Positions 41,769-58,238 of a stretch of DNA of 64,000 nucleotides are shown one piece after another. The notes below the pieces were generated by a model, which was not told the origin of the DNA, ran no database searches, and saw only the letters and a program-made list of their open reading frames with translations. The position numbers were made by a program, and so were the translations under genes. The number at the start of each line of letters is the position of its first letter. Within the stretch, counting starts at the first letter, position 1. The DNA lies in contig NZ_LR594487.1 of assembly GCF_901686465.1 (NCBI RefSeq), forward strand, positions 1,175,650 through 1,239,649, written 5' to 3'. The stretch comes from Halorubrum sp. DM2. GTDB lineage: Archaea > Halobacteriota > Halobacteria > Halobacteriales > Haloferacaceae.

Positions 41769-42308
41769 ATGACCGAAGACGAAGCGAACTCAGAGAGCCT
41801 GATGGACCGTCAAACCACGGGTGAAGATCGCGTCCGCATGGTCGCCCGGCAGCTGTCGGAGCCGCGGACGGCAAACTGGATCGCATCTGAAGCGGAGTGG
41901 TCACACGAACCCACCAAGCGCGTCCTCAGACGGCTCGTCGACGACGGCATCCTCCACCGTGACGAGAGCGGCACTCACACCACGTACTATCCCGATTACC
42001 GGCGACAAGCGATGCAGGAGGCGATGCGGCTGCGGGACAGCGGCCACACTGTCGAGGAGCTTACGGACCGGCTTGGGGAGATGAAGGCACAAATCCGTGA
42101 CTGGGAGGACGAATTCGACGTTGAGTCACCGAACCAACTTCGCGGCACACTCGCCGACGAAACGCTTGACAGCGACGAAGAAGCCCGTCGACGTGAGATT
42201 GCTCGTGACTGGGAGCACCTCCAACGGCGCATCAAAATCGTCGGGTTCGCTATCCGCGAGTGGGACTTCCTCGCTCCGACGTCAGAGCCCTCCGAGGCCA
42301 GTAGCTAA
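41769..42308 (+). CDS. DUF7342-like winged-helix protein, probable antitoxin
   Basis: 179 aa. A winged helix (residues 22-75) contains RMVARQLSEPRTANWIASEA, then KRVLRRLVDDGILHRDESG. An extended helix follows (ELTDRLGEMKAQIRDWEDEF) and a C-terminal DWEHLQRRIKIVGFAIREWD segment shared in form with the protein at 62958. Such haloarchaeal regulators often precede TumE-like proteins. It is followed 3 bp later by one, so an autoregulating antitoxin is likely. Confidence 0.65.
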   Translation: MTEDEANSESLMDRQTTGEDRVRMVARQLSEPRTANWIASEAEWSHEPTKRVLRRLVDDGILHRDESGTHTTYYPDYRRQAMQEAMRLRDSGHTVEELTDRLGEMKAQIRDWEDEFDVESPNQLRGTLADETLDSDEEARRREIARDWEHLQRRIKIVGFAIREWDFLAPTSEPSEASS

Positions 42309-42311
42309 CGG

Positions 42312-42770
42312 ATGTCGGTCCCGCATCCCGGTGGTGACCCGAACGCGAATCTCTACGCCCAGCTGAAGCGGGACGTCCTTGACCGCGTGCCTCAGATCAC
42401 AGCCGTTGAGTACGTTCCTGACGATATTGAGGCCAAGCAACTGCGAGCAATTTTCGATCCGGCTCGTCTTGACCCGCCAACCGGTCCTAACTCACCGGAA
42501 CTGACCATCAAATGGTACCGACAGGATCCCCACGATTGGTTTCGTATCAACTACACTGACCCGAACACGGGCTTTCATGCTGGCTGGCACCAGGACGAGG
42601 ATCATCCTGACCTCGGACGGACCCATTTCCAGTGCTCAGTCGAGGATGAAGAGGACCGCTGGGGAATCACGTTCGAACACGAGACTCCGTCCCTGATTCT
42701 CTGGGAGATCGTCGAAGATCTCCTCGAGGAGGTTCGCACCAACCACCAATCCGGGAACGAGGACTCATGA
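42312..42770 (+). CDS. TumE/DUF6516-like protein, probable toxin
   Basis: 152 aa. The core LTIKWYRQDPHDWFRINYTD, then GFHAGWHQDEDHP, LGRTHFQCSV and ILWEIVEDLLEEV resembles TumE/DUF6516, with a beta-sheet body and His-rich loops. TumE-type proteins act with an HTH antitoxin. Gene order here is antitoxin then toxin. Its TGA overlaps the integrase start, so the pair may help maintain the element carrying the integrase. The assignment is pattern-based. Confidence 0.5.
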   Translation: MSVPHPGGDPNANLYAQLKRDVLDRVPQITAVEYVPDDIEAKQLRAIFDPARLDPPTGPNSPELTIKWYRQDPHDWFRINYTDPNTGFHAGWHQDEDHPDLGRTHFQCSVEDEEDRWGITFEHETPSLILWEIVEDLLEEVRTNHQSGNEDS

Positions 42771-44017
42771 CCTCCGAGAAGACGTCTGTGGAAGGTACCG
42801 AGCGGTCGCTCGCGAGTTCGTTCGAGCGGTACCTCCAGGACAAGGGGAAAGGTCGCGGTGGCGACGGCGGGAACTACCGACGCAACGCGGCACGCGAGCT
42901 TGAGCGGTTTGCCGAGTGGGCCGCCGGCGATCGCGGCCGTGACGATTGGCCCGGGATCGTCCCCGACGATGCCGATCGAGAGCCCACCTTCGGAGACCTC
43001 GATGAACGTGTCTTCCGGGAATACGCCAGGCACCTCGCTGGTGACCGTGGACTCAAGCAGAATACCGTACAAACCTATTACCGCTATATCTCTGCGTGGT
43101 GTGGCTGGTGCGTCAACGAGGGGTATCTCGAGGCACACTACGCACAGCGGGCCAGTGCGATGGCCCCGCTCCCCGAGGATGACGGCCGCAAGCCCGGCGA
43201 CCAGCAAGCGTGGACCTCCAAGCAGCGCCACGCATTCACCCGTTATGTCGATCAGCAGGCCCGTAACGCCATCGAAGAGTACACAACGCTTCCAGAGGGC
43301 ACAGACCCTCTCGACAAGCAGCGGGCCCGTTACGCCGCACTGAAAGCGGCTCGCGACCGCGCACTCGTTTTTGTCCTCGCTTACACGGCTGTCCGGGTTG
43401 GTGAACTCCTCCGCGATCCCGACGATCCACGACGTCGCGGTGTCCGTTGGGAGGACCTCTCGCTTGACGACGGAAGTATGGACGTCTACCGGAAGAAGCA
43501 GCAATGGGACGCCGCGAGCCTCCCTGAACCGGTGATTTCACCGCTCAAAAGCTACCGTCAGCTCCTCAACCCACCGACCGATCGATGGCCGGTATTCCCT
43601 ACTTTCGATCAGCGAACGCTTGCCGATCTCATTAATACAGAGTTGTCCAACCGTGGAGAGCAGCCGGCAGCGATCGACGACCGACGAGAGGAGTACGCTC
43701 GTGACTTCCTGCTTGCGCTTGAGGCTGACATTCGCCCACCGTCGATCACGACCGATGGTGCCCGGTCGATCCTCCGTCGACTCACTGAGTCAGCGGCGAT
43801 CGATGTTGACCACCCGAAACACGAGTATCTCGCGCCGCACGGTGGTCGACGTGGAATGGGCGAGGTACTCGTTCGTGCGTTCGGGTATACAGTCGCTGCC
43901 CGCTACCTCGACAACTCTGAGGAGATGGTTCGAGAGCGTTATTCACACATCGAAGCCGGCGAGTTGGGTGACATCGCAACGGAAGCGTTGGACGAGATCG
44001 ACATGGATCTCGAGTAG
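42767..44017 (+). CDS. Tyrosine recombinase/integrase
   Basis: 416 aa. N-terminal SAM-like DNA-binding domain (residues 15-130) with LKQNTVQTYYRYISAW. Catalytic domain: Arg in AYTAVRVGELL (about 210), HGGRRG box giving His and Arg (about 359), and nucleophile Tyr in RERYSHIEAG (about 391). The second-site residue after the Arg was not located. It overlaps the toxin gene by ATGA. It is an element integrase or resolvase; no paired att site was identified. Confidence 0.85.
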   Translation: MTSEKTSVEGTERSLASSFERYLQDKGKGRGGDGGNYRRNAARELERFAEWAAGDRGRDDWPGIVPDDADREPTFGDLDERVFREYARHLAGDRGLKQNTVQTYYRYISAWCGWCVNEGYLEAHYAQRASAMAPLPEDDGRKPGDQQAWTSKQRHAFTRYVDQQARNAIEEYTTLPEGTDPLDKQRARYAALKAARDRALVFVLAYTAVRVGELLRDPDDPRRRGVRWEDLSLDDGSMDVYRKKQQWDAASLPEPVISPLKSYRQLLNPPTDRWPVFPTFDQRTLADLINTELSNRGEQPAAIDDRREEYARDFLLALEADIRPPSITTDGARSILRRLTESAAIDVDHPKHEYLAPHGGRRGMGEVLVRAFGYTVAARYLDNSEEMVRERYSHIEAGELGDIATEALDEIDMDLE

Positions 44018-49098: not shown

Positions 49099-50563
49099 AT
49101 CAGTGACTAGGCCGCGAGAGATTTGTACCTGTCTCAGTCAGCGCTGCGGAGAGTCTGTGATCGCGTCATTGACGACCCCGTAATGTCTACGCTGTCCTCC
49201 GATCGGGATCCGGGAGTTCCTCGGCAACAGCCACATCGTGTCCGGCGACGTACCCATTTAGCTTGGCAGCGATCGGTGACTTACATGGGGCAATTCGTTG
49301 ATCGACCGCACGGACTTCGACCGCTGCGAGGGACGGCGAGCGTGCGCTCGGCTCGACTCCTCGGCCCACGACGACTCATCCACGGTCGGCTCTCACGACG
49401 ACTGGCTGGCGCTTGATGGGTCGCTGGCGCTCGCGGTCACGCTTTCACTACGCTCGCTCGAACCCTCTGATCAAGACAATCTGATCCGCGGTCCACACGT
49501 CCACCCCACGCACGGATACTTGGTGTAGATTACAATCTAAAAATAACTGCGGGATCGACGACGGATCGATGGTGGGGGAGAGGCGCTCAACACTCTCCGA
49601 CTCAACTCTCACTCAACACTTCACACTCCACACTCCACGGCTCGCTCTCACTCCGGATCGCTGCTCACTGCTGAGGGGTCGGCGAGCGCGACGCGCTCGA
49701 CGTTGCGGATCAACTCGCGGTCGACGGTGCGCTGTCACGGTGCGCTCACTCGCGGTCGATGGCGGCGACGATCACTCGCGACGGTCCACGTCACGACGCG
49801 CACAACGACGCGAGCAACGCGACGATCGACGGTGGGCTATCGCGACGGAATCACTCGCGGTCAACACGACTCGATCGGCACTCGTTGTGCGTCGTCGACG
49901 GCGTCGATCCCTCGTAGCGGGGCGCACCCCACGTGCGGAAAGTTGTAGAAGCGAATACACTGAAGGAATACGGTGCGTCACTCGGTCGACGCGGTCAACG
50001 ACGCACTGATCGCTACTGTGGTCGCGTCGATCGCGGTGCTGTTCACGAGCGGTCTGCGTTGCTGTTGCTGTCACGAGCTGGTCTACTGACTGCGCGATCG
50101 ACTCCTGCTGTGCTGTCTGTTGACGGCGGCGACTTGTCGCTCTCACTCGGGGTTCAACTGTGCGCTGCGCGCTCGTCTATCCTCGGTGTCGAGGTTATCG
50201 ATCCTCTCACTTGGCGTCCGAGATCGTGGCGTCATTGCGACGGTCCACGTTGTTCTTTTCTCTGCGTTCTGATATACTTCGATAACTCGTCTTCTGGTGT
50301 CGACGGCGACGATCACGGTGCTGTTTCAAGCGCGATCAGCGCACTCTCTCATGTCGGGCTTCGCGTCGTCGTCTCCACGGTCCACGGTCGCACCTCGTGG
50401 TGGATCGATTCTCATGTCGGGGCGAGGGACCCCTCCTACTTCTCCTTCTCCCCTTGTTGGAGGGGGGTATCGCCCCTATTAGTGCGGGAAGGGTGGGGGT
50501 GCCTCATATTATGGGGGGTATTGTCCCCTTAATTTTGAGTACCAGCTATTAGGCCCTGTTTCT

Positions 50564-50577
50564 GGTATTTGAATACC
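50564..50577. repeat. 14-bp palindrome
   Basis: GGTATT-TG-AATACC, perfect arms, in the AT-rich end of the gene-free region. Confidence 0.6.
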
Positions 50578-50578
50578 T

Positions 50579-50743
50579 GATATTCTCTATTAAGACCAGA
50601 TATTCTCCCCGTGAAAAGCTGGCTTTCGGATGGGTGGTTAATATTACTACCCCATTATGGGGCTTAATATCTAGTAGTATGTATTATGGGCTTGGTATAG
50701 AGGTAGATTATAGGGTATTCGCTATTGAGGCTCTGATATTCTC
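50579..50743. repeat. Three gatattctc direct repeats
   Basis: Copies at 50579-50587, 50599-50607 and 50735-50743, with 20-bp spacing between the first two. They could be iteron-like or regulator sites. Confidence 0.5.
50650..50662. repeat. 13-bp palindrome
   Basis: CCCCAT-T-ATGGGG, perfect arms, 150 bp upstream of the ATG at 50814. Confidence 0.6.
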
Positions 50744-50813
50744 ATATAATATACTGGGGCATAACTACTAAGGGGCTATCTATTCTGATGAATTGTAGGG
50801 AGAATAAGAATAC

Positions 50814-51524
50814 ATGACCACGCTTAGGGAGTACGGACTGAAGCCTGCTGACGTAGAGTTTTTGTTAACTGTCCAAGATATAGAGAATAGCCCTCAAGAT
50901 TATGATAATACGGAACCGGGTGAAACACCTGCGAACGTGACTGTCATCCGTGAGGAAACCAGCCTCTCGAAATCGCAGGTCGCGTACCGATCTCGGGATG
51001 GCGAGAGCGGGCGGGGGTTCGCCACAGACGACATGGGGCTCCTCCGGGTTCACCCACCGACTGTGGAGTCGGGACAGTTTGGTCCACGGAGTGTGGAGCT
51101 GACTGATCAGGGGCGACGAGTAGCCTCCGAGGTTCGGGCGGAGCGGTCGGACTCGATGGACTCGGATGGAGCCGTAGCGGAAGCAGAAATTGATGAGTTA
51201 GAGCGGCAGGTTTCTGAGTTACAAGAAGATATTGAAAAAATCTCGGAGACCTTAGAGAAGATCGACCGCTCACAGATGGGCGCTATCGACTCAGACATGG
51301 CGGATCGTCTCACCGCTGCGCTTCGCTTCTTCCCCCGCCACCAGTTCATACTAAGCGAGGTCATGGGGATCGACATGGACGCCCTCTCGGACGCTGGTGA
51401 TCTTGACTCGGTCGACAAAGACGAGCTTCGACAGGAAGTGCTTGAGACACTTTCGGCAGCGAGCGATGGTGGGGGTAGTGGGGACTCAGCGGGGGGCGGT
51501 TCCGCCTCACTCGCTGACGAGTGA
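50814..51524 (+). CDS. HTH/coiled-coil protein beside the conjugation unit
   Basis: 236 aa. Residues 1-105 resemble a winged-helix domain (EYGLKPADVEFLLTVQDIEN, then VTVIREETSLSKSQVAYRSR, with a wing ending SVELTDQGRRVASEV). A coiled coil spans residues 120-155 (EIDELERQVSELQEDIEKIS). The tail is Gly/Ser/Asp-rich. Convergent with the large ATPase gene. Possibly its regulator or a partition-type DNA-binding protein (inference). Confidence 0.65.
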   Translation: MTTLREYGLKPADVEFLLTVQDIENSPQDYDNTEPGETPANVTVIREETSLSKSQVAYRSRDGESGRGFATDDMGLLRVHPPTVESGQFGPRSVELTDQGRRVASEVRAERSDSMDSDGAVAEAEIDELERQVSELQEDIEKISETLEKIDRSQMGAIDSDMADRLTAALRFFPRHQFILSEVMGIDMDALSDAGDLDSVDKDELRQEVLETLSAASDGGGSGDSAGGGSASLADE

Positions 51525-51741: not shown

Positions 51742-54700
51742 TTAGTCGGCGCTGCTCTCGTCGTCCTCGTTCTGTTCGCTATTGAGTACGTCACTCAAGT
51801 TGGGCTCTGACCGGCCCGATCGCTCACCGGTGGATGCCTCGCTATCGTCGGTGCTGCTGTCTGTATTGGGATCCTGTTCGGTAGGACCAGTCCCCTGTTG
51901 CTCGTGGCCTTCTGCGGGTGCTCCTCCGAATGTTTCTGGGGAGCTCTCGGAGTCGGACAACTCCGCATCTATCAGGCTGTCCCACGCTTCATCATCCATG
52001 TCGATTTCCTCTGGATTCGGTTTTGCGTCTGAGTTGTTCTCTGCTGCCGGAGAGGCCTCACCCGTAGCCTTTGTCCGGTCCGTGTTGGGCTCGGGCTGGG
52101 TATCGGGTGAATCGTTGGCCTCGCCGACTTCGCTGGATTCGCTTGACCCGTTGGTGACGATCTCCTTGACGGGGTCAGCGTCCAATCCGATAGGTGGCTC
52201 CTCGCCTACTGAGAAGTCGGTAAGTGCCGCTCGCAGGGTTCCCTCCTGTTCGCGTGAGAGGGTCGCATCTCCGTCTCTCGCGGCCCGGAGAAGCCCGGGT
52301 GATACGGACACGTCTGGGTGGGACGATATGTTCACGGGCGTCGGCTCTGTCTTGTAGGTCACTTCCCCCTGCTCCTCGACGATCTCCGCGGCCTCCTCCG
52401 GCGTAATCCCGCTGTCAGTCCCTTCGTCGCGGGAAGACTCATCTGCCGGTTCACCAGCCGCCTCCTCGTCAGTCGCGTACGCGCCGACACCGTCGACGGG
52501 GATGACGATCTCCCCGGGAATCTCCTCAGTGGGGTACTCGGGGGTCCCCTTTGCGAGCCGCTTGAGGATCGATTGGAGGATCACGGCCTCGTCGACGGTC
52601 ATGTCCCGTTCACCCCGGGCGATCGCCGCGATCTCCTCGGGCGTGAGCTCTAATCGGTCGTCCTTCGCGATCTCTGTCGGTGTCGGTGCCGTGTTGTATC
52701 CCGGGTGCGAGAGGCCGGGGTTCTCTGGGGACATACCGATCGTCTCGTCGTTCTCATCGGGCGCTCTCTCGCCTTCCTCGCCGCGCTCGTCGGCTTCGGA
52801 TGACGCCTCACCCGTTGCCGTGGCCTCGGCCGACTCGTCACTCTCACCGGTTGTCGCTTCTTCGGTTGTGCCTCCCTCGTCGACTTCCTCGGGAAGCACG
52901 ATTAGGTCGGCCACCTCGTCGGGCGTTGTCGCCATGTAATCGGGGTCGGCGGCGAGAGAGTTCACGATCGTCAGGAGAACAGTCTTCTGCTGCGTGGGCG
53001 GCGTGTATTCGCCCTCTGCGGTGGCGGTGATCTCCTCGACGGTAAGGTCGACTCGATCGTCGCTCGCGATACGCGCCGGTGTGGGCGCTTCCTCGAAGCC
53101 TTCAACTGCCGGGGCGTCGCTGGCGGGGGTGTCGCCACTCGACCCGCTCTCCGCCGGGCTCTCGCCGCTTTCGTCGGGTTCACCGTCGCCCGCCGTTTCT
53201 TCCTCATCCGCAGGCTCGTCAGCGGTCGCGTCCTCGACCTCGCCGGGGCCTTCGATCTCGCCGGCGTCGACGTCGTCGACAGACTCGACGCCAAGGTGGT
53301 CGAACAGCGGGGTACACTCGCCGCGGTGGTAGAGTTGCGGCTGGTCGTATTCGTCGTTGTCCCCGTCCGGGAAGATGATGATCTCGAAGTCCTCGTGGTC
53401 GGGCCACTCCGGGAAGCGGGCTTCGGGAATGAACGGCCCTCTGAACGTGACCCAGTTCGCCTCAAGCTCCTCTTTGCTCGGGTAGTATAGCTTCTCGCCG
53501 TCGTGGTAGACGACGTACTCGCCCTCGCTCTGGTCGTACTCGTAGTAGGCTGGGACGGCGTTTTTGTCACCCTCATGTGCGGCCTCCGGGCCGTCAAACC
53601 GGGCTATCTCCCCGTCAGGTGCCGGCTCTTTGTCTCCGACCGCGGCCACGACCTCTCCGGTATCGGTGTCACGATACCAGATCATGCTCATCGTTCCGTT
53701 CCCCTCGTCGTCTTCTTCGCGTCGCTCGCGAACAGCGACCTTCTCGTCACCGACACGGTAGTCGCCTCCACCGTCGTTGTAGTACCGGAGATTCCCGTCT
53801 TTACCGGGTGATTTGCGGAAGGCAATCTCGTCGCTGACGACCTCGGTGTTCTGTCGCTGCCCTTCTGTCTCGTAGATGACCTTCTCGGCGCGCTCGCCCC
53901 AGTAGGTGAAACTGCCGTGGTTGGCGCTCCCGTCTTTCACCGCGAACACGCACTTTTCGCCCTTCTCCATCGCTTTCCGGAGGTTGGTGAACGTCTGGAA
54001 GGGGTACTTGATCGTCGACGTTTCCGCCTCGATCGATACGTCGTCCGCGCCGGCGAAGTTCCACACGCCGGGGTACTCCTCGCGAAGCTGCTCGCGACGT
54101 TCGTCGATCGCGTCCAGCATCTCCGAGCGCGACTGGTCTTCATCCACGTCGGTTACGTCGATCGGCGCTTCTGCGACGCCGTCCGGCATCTCCTCGCCTT
54201 CCTGTTCGGGGAGCCACGACACGTAGCCGATCTGCGTGAACGCGACGTAGCATTGGCCGAGAATCCACCGGTGGTCGTCGCCGCCGCCGGAGCCGGCACT
54301 CCCTGTGTCCTGTTGGAGAACGACCCCACGACCCTCGGGTGTGAGCCGGATGACCGACTCGCCGCCCTCGCGCTCTGTCTCGGCGTAGCTGCTGTTGACC
54401 CGCTCGTAGATGTTCGACAGTTCGGAGAGGCTGTCAATCGTCGCATCCTCAAGGCGAGCAACGAGCTCGTCTTTCGCGTCGTCGACGGGGACATACTGGT
54501 CGGCCTGCTTGCCCGCGCGGAGCCGTGCCGCGAAGATGGACTCCAAGACCGTATCGAGATGGCGCTCGACGACGCTCTCGGCGTCGTCTGCCGTCGATGC
54601 CCCGAACGCTCCGGGGGTCTCGCCGGCGCTCCCGCTGCCCTCGCCGCCGGACATGGGCGTCGTCGACGCCGCGGTCGCGTCTCCGCTCGTGCCGCCGCCT

Positions 54701-56697
54701 ATCCCCGGGTTCTCCGGCCCCGGGACGGCGTTTTGGAGTTCACGGGCGTAGAACAGCTTTTCATCCTTGTCCTCGACCATCGCCATTTTCTGCCCGATAC
54801 CGGTCTCCCACCGGCCCTGTCCCTCGTTGAACAGAAGGTTCTGGTACACTTCCTCGTCGGACCGCCGTTCGCGACCGACTTCCTGAAGGCTCGCATCGAT
54901 CGCTTCCTCGCGGGCATCCACGTCACGGACGGGCGGGAACGGAGGATGAGCGTACACACGGAACGCCTCGGACCGCTCCATGTTCTCGGAGATCGTCGTC
55001 CGCATCCAGTAGTGGTAGTTGACTTCCTCGGTCAGATCCTCGGGGTCAAGCCCCAACTGCGTACAGTAGGTCCGGGCGGATTTCTTGTCGCCCGGGTTGA
55101 ACGACATGATCGTATCGCAGTTGGTCGTGATCGCGTCGATGACCTTTTGGGGGAGCTGGTCCGGGTACTGGTTGGCGAGCGTCATGGCGAGCCGGTACGA
55201 CCGGCTCTCGGAGATCATCGACGGGATCGTTTCGTCGGCGAGCGCGAGGTTGTCGAACTCGTCGCAGAACAGGTAGAAGGGCGACCGCTCGTGTTCGGAG
55301 GTGGTTGCCCGGCCGCGGATATGAGACCAGATCCGCCGGATGACCGACATACCGAGCATCTGCTTGAGTTGTCTCGGCTCTGACCCCATCCGCACGATGA
55401 TGATCTTGTCGTTGTCGATCGCATCGGGGATGGACACTCCACCCGAGCGGAAGCCGATCATCCGGCGGGCGACGGGGTTCTGGATCCACGGGAGGAACCG
55501 TCCGAGTAGCGGCTCCAGATCGTCCTCGGGCATCTCTGCGACCGTCTCCATGTGCGGCGTAATGAACCGCATCCCGGCCTTTTTCAGTCGGGCGGTAAAC
55601 TCGTGGCGAGAGGCCTCCGACTTGAGGACGTAGTACATATCCACGAAGTTCATCTCGGGGGCATCGTCGGGGGTCATGGCGTTGTACTGGTTCATCCCCG
55701 TGATGATCGACTGAGCTACTCGGTCCATCCGTGGCCCCCAGTAGTCGTCGTTCGCAGCGAGCATCTGCTTCAGGTCCTCGACGAGCGACGCGAGCGCGGC
55801 GTTGTACCCGTCCTCATCGGGGTCCATGTTGAGTGAGATAAAGTTGAACCCAGAGAGGTAGTCGCCCGTCGCCCCCGGCTCAATCCACACGACGTCGTCC
55901 AGCCGGTGTTCGGGCATGACCTCCATGAGCCGGCGAGCGTCGTCGCCCTTCGGGTCGATATAGCAGAGTCCAGCACCGGACTCGATGAGCTGGCGAGCGT
56001 CGTTCGTCAGTAGCGTGGACTTCCCGTAGTCGGTGACGCCAAAGATCGCGCGGTGGCGGAACAGGTGGTCCTTCTCGATCGACGCGTCGCGACCGTTTCG
56101 CGTCCCCTTCCCGACGAATAGGGGCACGTCGTCGTAGTTCCGGGGGAGGTCCTCAAGGACTTTCCGCGACTCGCCGGCGGCGTAGACCTCTTTCCCACTC
56201 TCTCCCGCATCGAGTTCGTCGGGATCGACGTGATCTGGGATGCCGATAGACTGTATCTCCGCGCCGTACTCGGTCCGGCGATCGCGTTCCTCGTATGCGT
56301 AGCCAAACTCGGGCATCTCGCTGATCGCGTTCTCGATCTGAACGAGGTCCCGTTGGATGGCCTGTATCTGACTTCTGGTGGTGCTTTTCGGGAGTCGATC
56401 GAGGGTGATGAAGTCCTTGAGGTCGCGTAGGTCGTCCGCGATGTGGTCTGTCGTTGGATTCTGGTCTGGGTGGGTCCACACCGGTGACTCGTCGTTGTGG
56501 GTCAGCTCATCGACCGTAGTGAGCAAGTTTGCGACGTGGCCGGAGAGCTCATCGCGGTGATCGATACTGAGCTTCCGGCTCTCGACGGTCTCCGCTGTCC
56601 TCTCGATTTTCTGGTAGAGTGTTCCCAGATGCTTCTCGTTCACGTATTCGGTGTTCTCGTCCTCATCGTCGCCGCCGCCGAATATGCTTTCAAACAT
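51742..56697 (-). CDS. VirD4/HerA-like conjugation ATPase with long repeat tail
   Basis: 1651 aa. Helical N-terminus, then a P-loop ATPase: Walker A GVTDYGKST (about 220), Walker B YLFCDEFDN (about 478), LANQYPDQLPQ and TIMSFNPGDKKSARTYCTQL as in VirD4/TraG coupling proteins. After residue 680 come a Gly/Ser linker, a beta-rich domain (about 790-1150) and an acidic tail with three copies of a roughly 65-residue module (starts near 1202, 1336 and 1452) sharing TPxxI..D and a leucine-rich helix. No N-terminal membrane helices. It likely powers DNA transfer or packaging. Confidence 0.8.
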   Translation of the reverse strand: MFESIFGGGDDEDENTEYVNEKHLGTLYQKIERTAETVESRKLSIDHRDELSGHVANLLTTVDELTHNDESPVWTHPDQNPTTDHIADDLRDLKDFITLDRLPKSTTRSQIQAIQRDLVQIENAISEMPEFGYAYEERDRRTEYGAEIQSIGIPDHVDPDELDAGESGKEVYAAGESRKVLEDLPRNYDDVPLFVGKGTRNGRDASIEKDHLFRHRAIFGVTDYGKSTLLTNDARQLIESGAGLCYIDPKGDDARRLMEVMPEHRLDDVVWIEPGATGDYLSGFNFISLNMDPDEDGYNAALASLVEDLKQMLAANDDYWGPRMDRVAQSIITGMNQYNAMTPDDAPEMNFVDMYYVLKSEASRHEFTARLKKAGMRFITPHMETVAEMPEDDLEPLLGRFLPWIQNPVARRMIGFRSGGVSIPDAIDNDKIIIVRMGSEPRQLKQMLGMSVIRRIWSHIRGRATTSEHERSPFYLFCDEFDNLALADETIPSMISESRSYRLAMTLANQYPDQLPQKVIDAITTNCDTIMSFNPGDKKSARTYCTQLGLDPEDLTEEVNYHYWMRTTISENMERSEAFRVYAHPPFPPVRDVDAREEAIDASLQEVGRERRSDEEVYQNLLFNEGQGRWETGIGQKMAMVEDKDEKLFYARELQNAVPGPENPGIGGGTSGDATAASTTPMSGGEGSGSAGETPGAFGASTADDAESVVERHLDTVLESIFAARLRAGKQADQYVPVDDAKDELVARLEDATIDSLSELSNIYERVNSSYAETEREGGESVIRLTPEGRGVVLQQDTGSAGSGGGDDHRWILGQCYVAFTQIGYVSWLPEQEGEEMPDGVAEAPIDVTDVDEDQSRSEMLDAIDERREQLREEYPGVWNFAGADDVSIEAETSTIKYPFQTFTNLRKAMEKGEKCVFAVKDGSANHGSFTYWGERAEKVIYETEGQRQNTEVVSDEIAFRKSPGKDGNLRYYNDGGGDYRVGDEKVAVRERREEDDEGNGTMSMIWYRDTDTGEVVAAVGDKEPAPDGEIARFDGPEAAHEGDKNAVPAYYEYDQSEGEYVVYHDGEKLYYPSKEELEANWVTFRGPFIPEARFPEWPDHEDFEIIIFPDGDNDEYDQPQLYHRGECTPLFDHLGVESVDDVDAGEIEGPGEVEDATADEPADEEETAGDGEPDESGESPAESGSSGDTPASDAPAVEGFEEAPTPARIASDDRVDLTVEEITATAEGEYTPPTQQKTVLLTIVNSLAADPDYMATTPDEVADLIVLPEEVDEGGTTEEATTGESDESAEATATGEASSEADERGEEGERAPDENDETIGMSPENPGLSHPGYNTAPTPTEIAKDDRLELTPEEIAAIARGERDMTVDEAVILQSILKRLAKGTPEYPTEEIPGEIVIPVDGVGAYATDEEAAGEPADESSRDEGTDSGITPEEAAEIVEEQGEVTYKTEPTPVNISSHPDVSVSPGLLRAARDGDATLSREQEGTLRAALTDFSVGEEPPIGLDADPVKEIVTNGSSESSEVGEANDSPDTQPEPNTDRTKATGEASPAAENNSDAKPNPEEIDMDDEAWDSLIDAELSDSESSPETFGGAPAEGHEQQGTGPTEQDPNTDSSTDDSEASTGERSGRSEPNLSDVLNSEQNEDDESSAD

Positions 56698-56726: not shown

Positions 56727-58238
56727 TTAGTCGCCACTCCGGCGGTTGTTCCCCAACGGGTTCTGGTCGTCTTCGTCTTCTTCATCTTCTCTCTCGCCGT
56801 TGTCAGCGGCGAGTGGGTCCGGGTCTAATATCCCGCTGTCGCGCTCGTCGTGGCTGGGCGGGGTGTCAGCGTTGCCGTCGGCCCCTTCCGGTTCTGACTC
56901 GCCTGTGTGGTTATCAGGCGTGTTCCTCTCCGGGACACCGCCTGCTTCGGCGGCCGGTTCTGATACCGGCGAGGGGTCGGCGCTTGTGGGTGGCCCAGTT
57001 TTATGGCCGCCGAACGTACTTTTCTCCGGGCCCTCGGATCCGTCCTCTCCCACTGCCCGTTCCACGTCGTCGGACTGGCGGGATTCGGCTGGGATCCCCG
57101 GACCGGTCTGCTGTTTCGCCCAATCGACGACGGGCGTGTTGATGCTCTCGTTGGGGATGTGGGCGATCGACCCGAGTGCGCTGACCGTTTGGAGTGGCGC
57201 TCCTCCCGCGGGGCCGACCTTGAGGCGGTCGGTCCATGAGATCGAGTGCGTCCGCTCGGCCATCTGTTCAAGATGGTTGGGGACTTCCTCAGGTTCAATC
57301 GAGACGGGCGTGAGGCCCTGCTCGGTGAACGAGTTGTAGTATTTCTCGAAGTCGCTCGCGACGGTGTTACACCGGCGCTCGGCGATCTCCTTGTGGGGGG
57401 AGATAGCCAGCACGCGGACGGTGAAGTAGTAGCCCTTGGCCCCGTGGAGTTTGTCGATGATCTTCGCGGTTCGGGTGCGCTTGGAACCGGGGTCGCGGAC
57501 CTCGTATCCTTTCGCCATGTTGCCGACGAGCTCTCCCTCTTTGATCTTGGCAGCGGCCTCGGTGACGTTGATGCCGTAGGGGCGCTGCTTGGTCCACACG
57601 TCGCGCGCAGGCTCGAAGACGGTCTGGACCATCACGCGACAGTCTTCGGCGAGGACGCGCTCGCCGCTGGAGGTCTGGTCCTCCTCGACGACCATGTCTG
57701 AGGTGATGTCGCCGTAGGGGTCCATCTCGAAGTCCTCCTCGGCGATTTTACACTTGATGGGGTAGTAGAACGGCCGCTTGAGCCGCATCTTCGCCATCGC
57801 GATGTGGTCACCGCGATCGATGGTCGGGAACTGCTTGTTGGCCTCGGTGATCTGGGCGTCAGGGTAGTTTTTCCGAATCTGCCGTTCGACCTGATTAGCG
57901 TCGACGCGGGTTTCGGGCTTGAAGAAGAACTGTAGTTTCCCCTCGTCGTAGACCATCTCGTGACTGTGGATGTGAGAGTCGGTAGAGACGAGCTGGTGGC
58001 GGCCGAGTCCGATCTTGCTCTCGCGGGGTTCGTGGATGGTCTCGTAGAGGTTGATACTGGCGTCCATCCCGGGGTTCTCCCGCGGTGGTCGGATACGGAG
58101 CCGTGGGCCGGAGTCGGATTCGGCGGTCGAAATCCCTTCGTTAAACTCGCTGTAGAGGTCTTCATCTACTTGGATCGCCGGGTATCGTGACCCCTCTGTA
58201 ACCAGCCTATCAAGGATTGAGTTCAGTATTCTGTTCAT
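56727..58238 (-). CDS. Partner protein of the conjugation ATPase
   Basis: 503 aa, 29 bp upstream of the ATPase gene in the same direction and clearly co-transcribed. The first 350 residues are folded (HQLVSTDSHIHSHEMVYDEG, then FFFKPETRVDANQVERQIRK, YPDAQITEANKQFP, YYFTVRVLAISPHKEIAERR). The last 130 are Pro/Asp/Glu-rich and disordered. The order resembles the separate N-terminal partners found before VirB4/VirD4-like ATPases on archaeal plasmids. No enzyme motif seen. Confidence 0.65.
   Translation of the reverse strand: MNRILNSILDRLVTEGSRYPAIQVDEDLYSEFNEGISTAESDSGPRLRIRPPRENPGMDASINLYETIHEPRESKIGLGRHQLVSTDSHIHSHEMVYDEGKLQFFFKPETRVDANQVERQIRKNYPDAQITEANKQFPTIDRGDHIAMAKMRLKRPFYYPIKCKIAEEDFEMDPYGDITSDMVVEEDQTSSGERVLAEDCRVMVQTVFEPARDVWTKQRPYGINVTEAAAKIKEGELVGNMAKGYEVRDPGSKRTRTAKIIDKLHGAKGYYFTVRVLAISPHKEIAERRCNTVASDFEKYYNSFTEQGLTPVSIEPEEVPNHLEQMAERTHSISWTDRLKVGPAGGAPLQTVSALGSIAHIPNESINTPVVDWAKQQTGPGIPAESRQSDDVERAVGEDGSEGPEKSTFGGHKTGPPTSADPSPVSEPAAEAGGVPERNTPDNHTGESEPEGADGNADTPPSHDERDSGILDPDPLAADNGEREDEEDEDDQNPLGNNRRSGD

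Follow-up and report, generated by a model that had tools for sequence, protein, structure and literature searches.

The window, as the whole stretch of DNA analysed here is called, comprises 64,000 nucleotides of Halorubrum sp. DM2, and forms part of a haloarchaeal chromosome (one contig of 3.45 Mb). A reverse-strand open reading frame at 51742..56697 starts with ATG, contains no internal stops and encodes a VirD4/TraG-type translocase subunit of 1651 amino acids, with orthologues at 57-77% identity. Only 29 bp upstream of it, on the same strand, is the gene for a 503-aa partner protein (56727..58238). Converging on this pair from the other side is a forward-strand gene for a 236-aa protein (50814..51524), whose predicted domains are a winged helix (wHTH) and a coiled coil. 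This is preceded by a stretch of conserved non-coding DNA (50149..50519, forward strand). A 278-aa neighbour is a rhomboid-like membrane protein with no counterpart among the called genes of the other loci carrying these genes.

The motor domain of the 1651-aa protein spans residues 190-660 (54718..56130, reverse strand). It has a Walker A motif, GVTDYGKS (residues 220-227; 56017-56040, reverse strand), and a Walker B motif, LFCDEFDN (residues 476-483; 55249-55272, reverse strand). Pfam TraG-D_C (PF12696), the TraM-recognition domain of TraG/TraD, matches the motor with 32.2 bits against a cut-off of 22, thus providing the RecA-like motor with a TraG/TraD C-terminal signature that is expected of a type IV coupling protein. 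Profile searches also match the motor to DotL and to PHROG 5156 (E 1e-21, profile positions 406-803). A first-pass annotation of this DNA had called the protein a transfer ATPase of the VirD4/HerA type, and that assignment holds. It had overlooked the VirB4-like 503-aa partner, the convergent gene for a DNA-binding-type protein and the conserved non-coding DNA. A viral origin was considered and rejected: a phage collection gave only Bacillus phage G (23%), and viral contigs gave no match.

The 503-aa protein appears to supply the domain that usually precedes such a motor in VirB4. In an AF2 model of residues 1-400 (mean pLDDT 82), the top PDB matches found by Foldseek are all R388 TrwK/VirB4 (E 4.7e-5, prob 1.0), so that the protein has the N-terminal domain of VirB4. 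The same PHROG profile matches it at positions 49-150, elsewhere on the profile than the motor, and the two genes thus correspond to one fused protein elsewhere. In VirB4 itself, the N-domain and motor occupy a single chain; here they are encoded by two genes, and are fused only in some relatives. Most likely, the 503-aa protein and the 1651-aa motor together make up a two-subunit translocase. Compared with VirB4/TrwK, the arrangement differs not only in its two chains but also in its TraG/D-like motor signature, and relatives linked to a type IV secretion system (T4SS) encode a separate VirB4 as well. Compared with the bacterial coupling proteins VirD4, TrwB and TraD, with which it shares the motor signature, the 1651-aa protein has no N-terminal transmembrane domain, its VirB4-like N-domain resides on another chain, and it carries an additional region of winged-helix, nuclease-like and beta-rich parts.

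Some relatives are giant stand-alone proteins of 2407-3342 aa, in which the N-part, VirD4 motor and post-motor domain form one chain. They are encoded at L062:4634-14662(-), L064:3364-13245(-), L061:8525-15748(+), L070:8303-17938(+) and L072:8324-17917(+). Towards the C-terminus, some give weak matches to DnaG_N, Toprim_2 or Pox_D5, and it is possible, judging from these matches, that the giants are translocase-primase-helicase polyproteins.

The region that follows the motor is conserved and partly beta-rich, and was modelled with AF2 across residues 735-1152 (pLDDT ~86). The order of helices and strands suggests that it opens with a winged helix (residues 735-795; 54313..54495, reverse strand), for which Foldseek gives a weak match to 3o3k (AF1382; prob 0.89, E 0.73). 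Residues 805-925 (53923..54285, reverse strand) form a candidate nuclease core. Here, H809, D839 (within PDG), E890 and E892 (both within IEAETST) are invariant in 36 out of 36 homologues, as are Q832, P899 and N905; the acidic active-site signature of the PD-(D/E)XK superfamily is therefore present. The modelled order is helix, strand, strand, an insert, strand, helix and strand. Several relatives lack the insert, and there the two acidic stretches lie near each other in a hairpin-like arrangement. This layout agrees with a PD-(D/E)XK core whose signature ends in ExE, as that of BamHI does, instead of ExK. Structural matches are all below significance: the best nuclease in the PDB is the BsaWI endonuclease (E 0.29, prob 0.13), and among viral models a putative endodeoxyribonuclease I was matched (prob 0.44). 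The core has no match in Pfam or to PDB sequences. The chances that it is a nuclease are about even.

A beta-rich domain completes the post-motor region (residues 926-1140; 53278..53922, reverse strand), as seen in the AF2 model and in family-wide conservation. The first-pass annotation had noted a beta-rich domain fused to the motor and proposed an AlphaFold model of it. The beta-rich part is indeed there; it is, however, found throughout the family in haloarchaea, and the model places winged-helix and nuclease-like parts before it. Two other ideas about this region were discarded. One was membership of Replic_Relax (PF13814): none of 18 members gave this Pfam match, and when the family was searched for in 39 haloarchaeal genomes and 14 controls, it turned up only as sub-threshold stretches, in three of the haloarchaeal genomes and, among the controls, in Haloferax volcanii. 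Proteins of ~1540 aa, which had looked like motor-less users of the post-motor domain, turned out to be fused VirD4 proteins.

The remainder of the protein is a long acidic tail, described earlier as carrying three degenerate copies of a helical module. This description was confirmed by a non-circular test, in which a profile built from relatives only finds module 1 (residues about 1203-1271; 52885..53091) with 88 bits, module 2 (about 1337-1402; 52492..52689) with 74 bits and module 3 (about 1451-1504; 52186..52347) with 21 bits, all on the reverse strand, against a best score of 7 bits in 200 shuffled tails. Direct alignment of copies 1 and 2 scores 122, compared with 28.8 +/- 5.6 for shuffles, and none of 1000 shuffles reaches this value. 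Copies 2 and 3 score 53 (0 of 1000 shuffles), and copies 1 and 3 score 47 (4 of 1000). Module 3 is stronger at the corresponding position in the Halorubrum laminariae locus (L002) and in Halorubrum Atlit-26R (L003). The modules were seen only in the Halorubrum clade to which the window belongs, with a fourth copy in the genome G049.

The family as a whole is widespread in haloarchaea. It is present in 86 of 242 sampled genomes of the class and in 38 of 74 genera. Tblastn searches of plasmids matched 112 records with the motor, mostly haloarchaeal among the matches listed, and 53 with the 503-aa protein. At most inspected plasmid loci, a pair of the 503/1651 type closes a full T4SS operon. Gene order is fixed across the annotated loci and is clearest on pNATPE02, where a pilin (T4SS_pilin), a secreted or anchored surface protein, VirB6 (TrbL_3) and a VirB4-like ATPase are followed by a ~395-aa N-part and a ~1000-aa VirD4-like motor. 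This TraM-recognition protein and its 395-aa neighbour share the gene pair, the motor, the post-motor region and the lack of transmembrane segments with the genes in the window; they differ in belonging to a full T4SS operon and in having no long module-bearing tail. For the 578-aa surface protein encoded on pNATPE02, the PDB gave no sequence match. VirD4 on this plasmid is followed by a gene (L017:19529-20785) whose product has an NrS-1 polymerase HBD domain, and several haloarchaeal T4SS loci have a homologue in this position.

The closest T4SS-linked relative is the Atlit-26R orthologue, which is 77% identical and lies within an operon encoding a transmembrane pilin-like protein, a 773-aa surface protein, VirB6, a split VirB4 (395 + 797 aa) and the 523 + 1555-aa pair. 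A second full T4SS copy of the same clade is found in a different genus (G072, locus L135). VirB4 is likewise split into genes for an N-part and a motor, resembling the VirD4 pair, in the haloarchaeal T4SS of L003, L135 and L131-L134.

The absence of a membrane anchor, which the first-pass annotation had pointed out, is real: no transmembrane-like segment was detected in the 1651-, 503- or 236-aa proteins, so that the N-terminal transmembrane domain common, if not universal, among type IV coupling proteins is missing from the pair. The anchor is also missing in the T4SS-linked relatives tested, and hence this state is not peculiar to the 1651-aa gene. The same applies to the long tail, since the Atlit-26R protein has one and the orthologues in Atlit-26R and G072 belong to full T4SS operons. 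What is unusual about the locus is its orphan state. As had been claimed, no pilin, VirB4 or relaxase-like gene lies beside the 1651-aa gene, and no canonical T4SS adjoins it, but those two orthologues do have one. VirB4 was not found by two queries in the whole genome, from whose assembly plasmids may be missing; the second query was positive in the same search in G017, G018, G004 and pNATPE02.

Three other Halorubrum genomes have related orphans, each with a convergent winged-helix/coiled-coil gene. The pair thus occurs without T4SS genes in the inspected DNA of the window, Hrr. laminariae (L002), Hrr. amylolyticum (L004) and G049; laminariae and amylolyticum have common flanks and count as one orphan lineage. 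One explanation is decay, in which the 3' end of the operon of an integrated conjugative element was left by chance and is now out of use. T4SS genes have been lost, two genomes hold only remnants (G031 and G032: in one the 236-aa gene is broken, in the other it is intact and accompanied by a fragment of the tail), and integrase-like and IS genes lie ~7 kb away from the module described here. Against this, both large genes are intact at all four orphan loci and retain the Walker and nuclease-like residues. Furthermore, a comparison of two orphan loci gives dN/dS values of 0.06 for the motor, 0.15 for the post-motor region, 0.33 for the 503-aa protein and 0.18 for the 236-aa protein. By this sequence comparison, the orphans are under purifying selection, and decay is an unlikely explanation. 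The motor tree unites the five clade members at 100/100. Atlit-26R, although T4SS-linked, falls among the orphans there, with the inner fork open; this placement fits a loss of T4SS genes from a full element. An empty-site comparison gave no clean empty site, as the xseA neighbour is itself patchy.

The 236-aa gene is present at every complete locus inspected (L002, L003, L004 and L057) and in L135, and weak homologues are found in the same convergent arrangement behind VirD4 genes of other haloarchaea, among them the H. jeotgali group. The conserved non-coding DNA upstream of it is 0.35-1.1 kb long and was detected in six other genomes of the genus among those searched or inspected. It is common to three of the four Halorubrum orphan loci, with no detectable copy in G049. 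Its identity to the Atlit-26R sequence is 81%, higher than that of the adjacent 236-aa gene (75%), and it contains short repeated motifs. Our guess is that it serves as a transfer origin or regulatory site. A structured RNA was rejected, given that both strands fold, compensatory changes are few and Rfam gives no match.

Other parts of the window also deserve mention. Positions 49550-50810 comprise ~1.2 kb without a convincing gene, where GC-rich repeats give way to an AT-rich stretch with TATTA...GGGG-like repeated motifs; the sequence GGGGGGTATCG from this region also terminates the gap behind the 1651-aa gene. At 41769-44017, a trio of DUF7342 wHTH, 152-aa and integrase-SAM-like genes resembles in order, and nearly in gene lengths, a trio just upstream of the pNATPE02 T4SS operon (L017:3673-5915). 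The genes of a long forward-strand run at 11403-31958 (FecCD, ABC, flavin oxidoreductases and several Peripla_BP_2-like substrate-binding proteins) resemble an expanded cluster for uptake of the iron or cobalamin type.

Taken together, the reading that we find somewhat more probable than its rivals combined is that the locus encodes a two-subunit DNA translocase derived from a haloarchaeal T4SS and retained as an orphan mobilisation module. This is because relatives of the pair follow pilin, VirB6 and VirB4 in T4SS operons, the genome itself has no VirB4 detectable with a query that is positive elsewhere, and selection keeps the orphans. It is also because the 503-aa protein is a VirB4 N-domain by fold, the motor is of the TraG/TraD and DotL kind, and nuclease-type invariant residues occur together with conserved non-coding DNA and a convergent gene. 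Counting against it are the nuclease fold without a significant match, the lack of detectable non-coding DNA in G049 and the little covariation in predicted folds of that DNA.

In such a module, the 503-aa and 1651-aa subunits would form a ring, and the winged helix, aided by the 236-aa protein, would recognise the non-coding site. The nuclease-like core might then take the role of a relaxase by cutting or nicking the DNA, and the motor would pump it: a full element would feed its own T4SS, and an orphan the T4SS of a co-resident plasmid. The tail modules would dock a partner. Action with a T4SS in trans is thus the most likely mode, and action alone the less likely one. In the latter case, the locus would support stand-alone conjugation for which Streptomyces TraB/clt is the basis of comparison: the motor and winged helix would act on the non-coding repeats, and dsDNA would pass through the cytoplasmic bridges of haloarchaea, with neither a T4SS nor a relaxase involved. 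The persistence of orphans without VirB4, the modelled winged helix beside the motor and the repeated motifs would suit this. However, the VirB4-like nature of the partner points to docking on the inner-membrane complex of a T4SS, and relatives retain their T4SS, which makes the stand-alone mode quite improbable. An anti-virus defence module built from a HerA/VirD4 ATPase and a nuclease domain is least probable of all: the PADLOC mad8 profile matches the motor (E 1.3e-12), the core is nuclease-like and the distribution patchy, but mad8 also matches the motor of a giant relative and is hence a superfamily marker, relatives lie within T4SS operons, no defence partner genes were seen nearby, and PADLOC gives no match for the 503-, 236- and 278-aa neighbours, leaving the motor without the partner genes of HerA-type defence or MADS.

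VirB4/VirD4-like genes on archaeal elements are already known (PMC9259645, PMC9905601, PMC12857230), and the fsx1-bearing integrated elements of haloarchaea also carry VirB4 and TraG/TraD/VirD4-family genes (PMC9259645). The DNA-import ATPases CedB and TedB embody the similar idea of a domesticated archaeal T4SS ATPase (PMC9905601), but partner genes resembling CedA/CedA1 were not seen at the present locus. New, as far as checked, are the candidate nuclease domain, the orphan module and the pairing of a TraG-type motor with a VirB4-like N-domain on a chain of its own.

According to published accounts, archaeal conjugative plasmids have no recognisable relaxase (PMC9905601, PMC12857230), which raises the question of how DNA is prepared for transfer in archaea. 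It is tempting to speculate, although we regard this as doubtful, that haloarchaeal T4SS motors bring their own nickase: a fused winged helix and PD-(D/E)XE domain would replace the relaxase, and the orphan 503-, 1651- and 236-aa genes with the non-coding site would be a minimal relaxase-free mobilisation unit. The conserved nuclease-like domain on a haloarchaeal transfer motor is a direct candidate for DNA preparation, with four residues to mutate, and the compact orphan module with its conserved DNA site offers a small, testable system.
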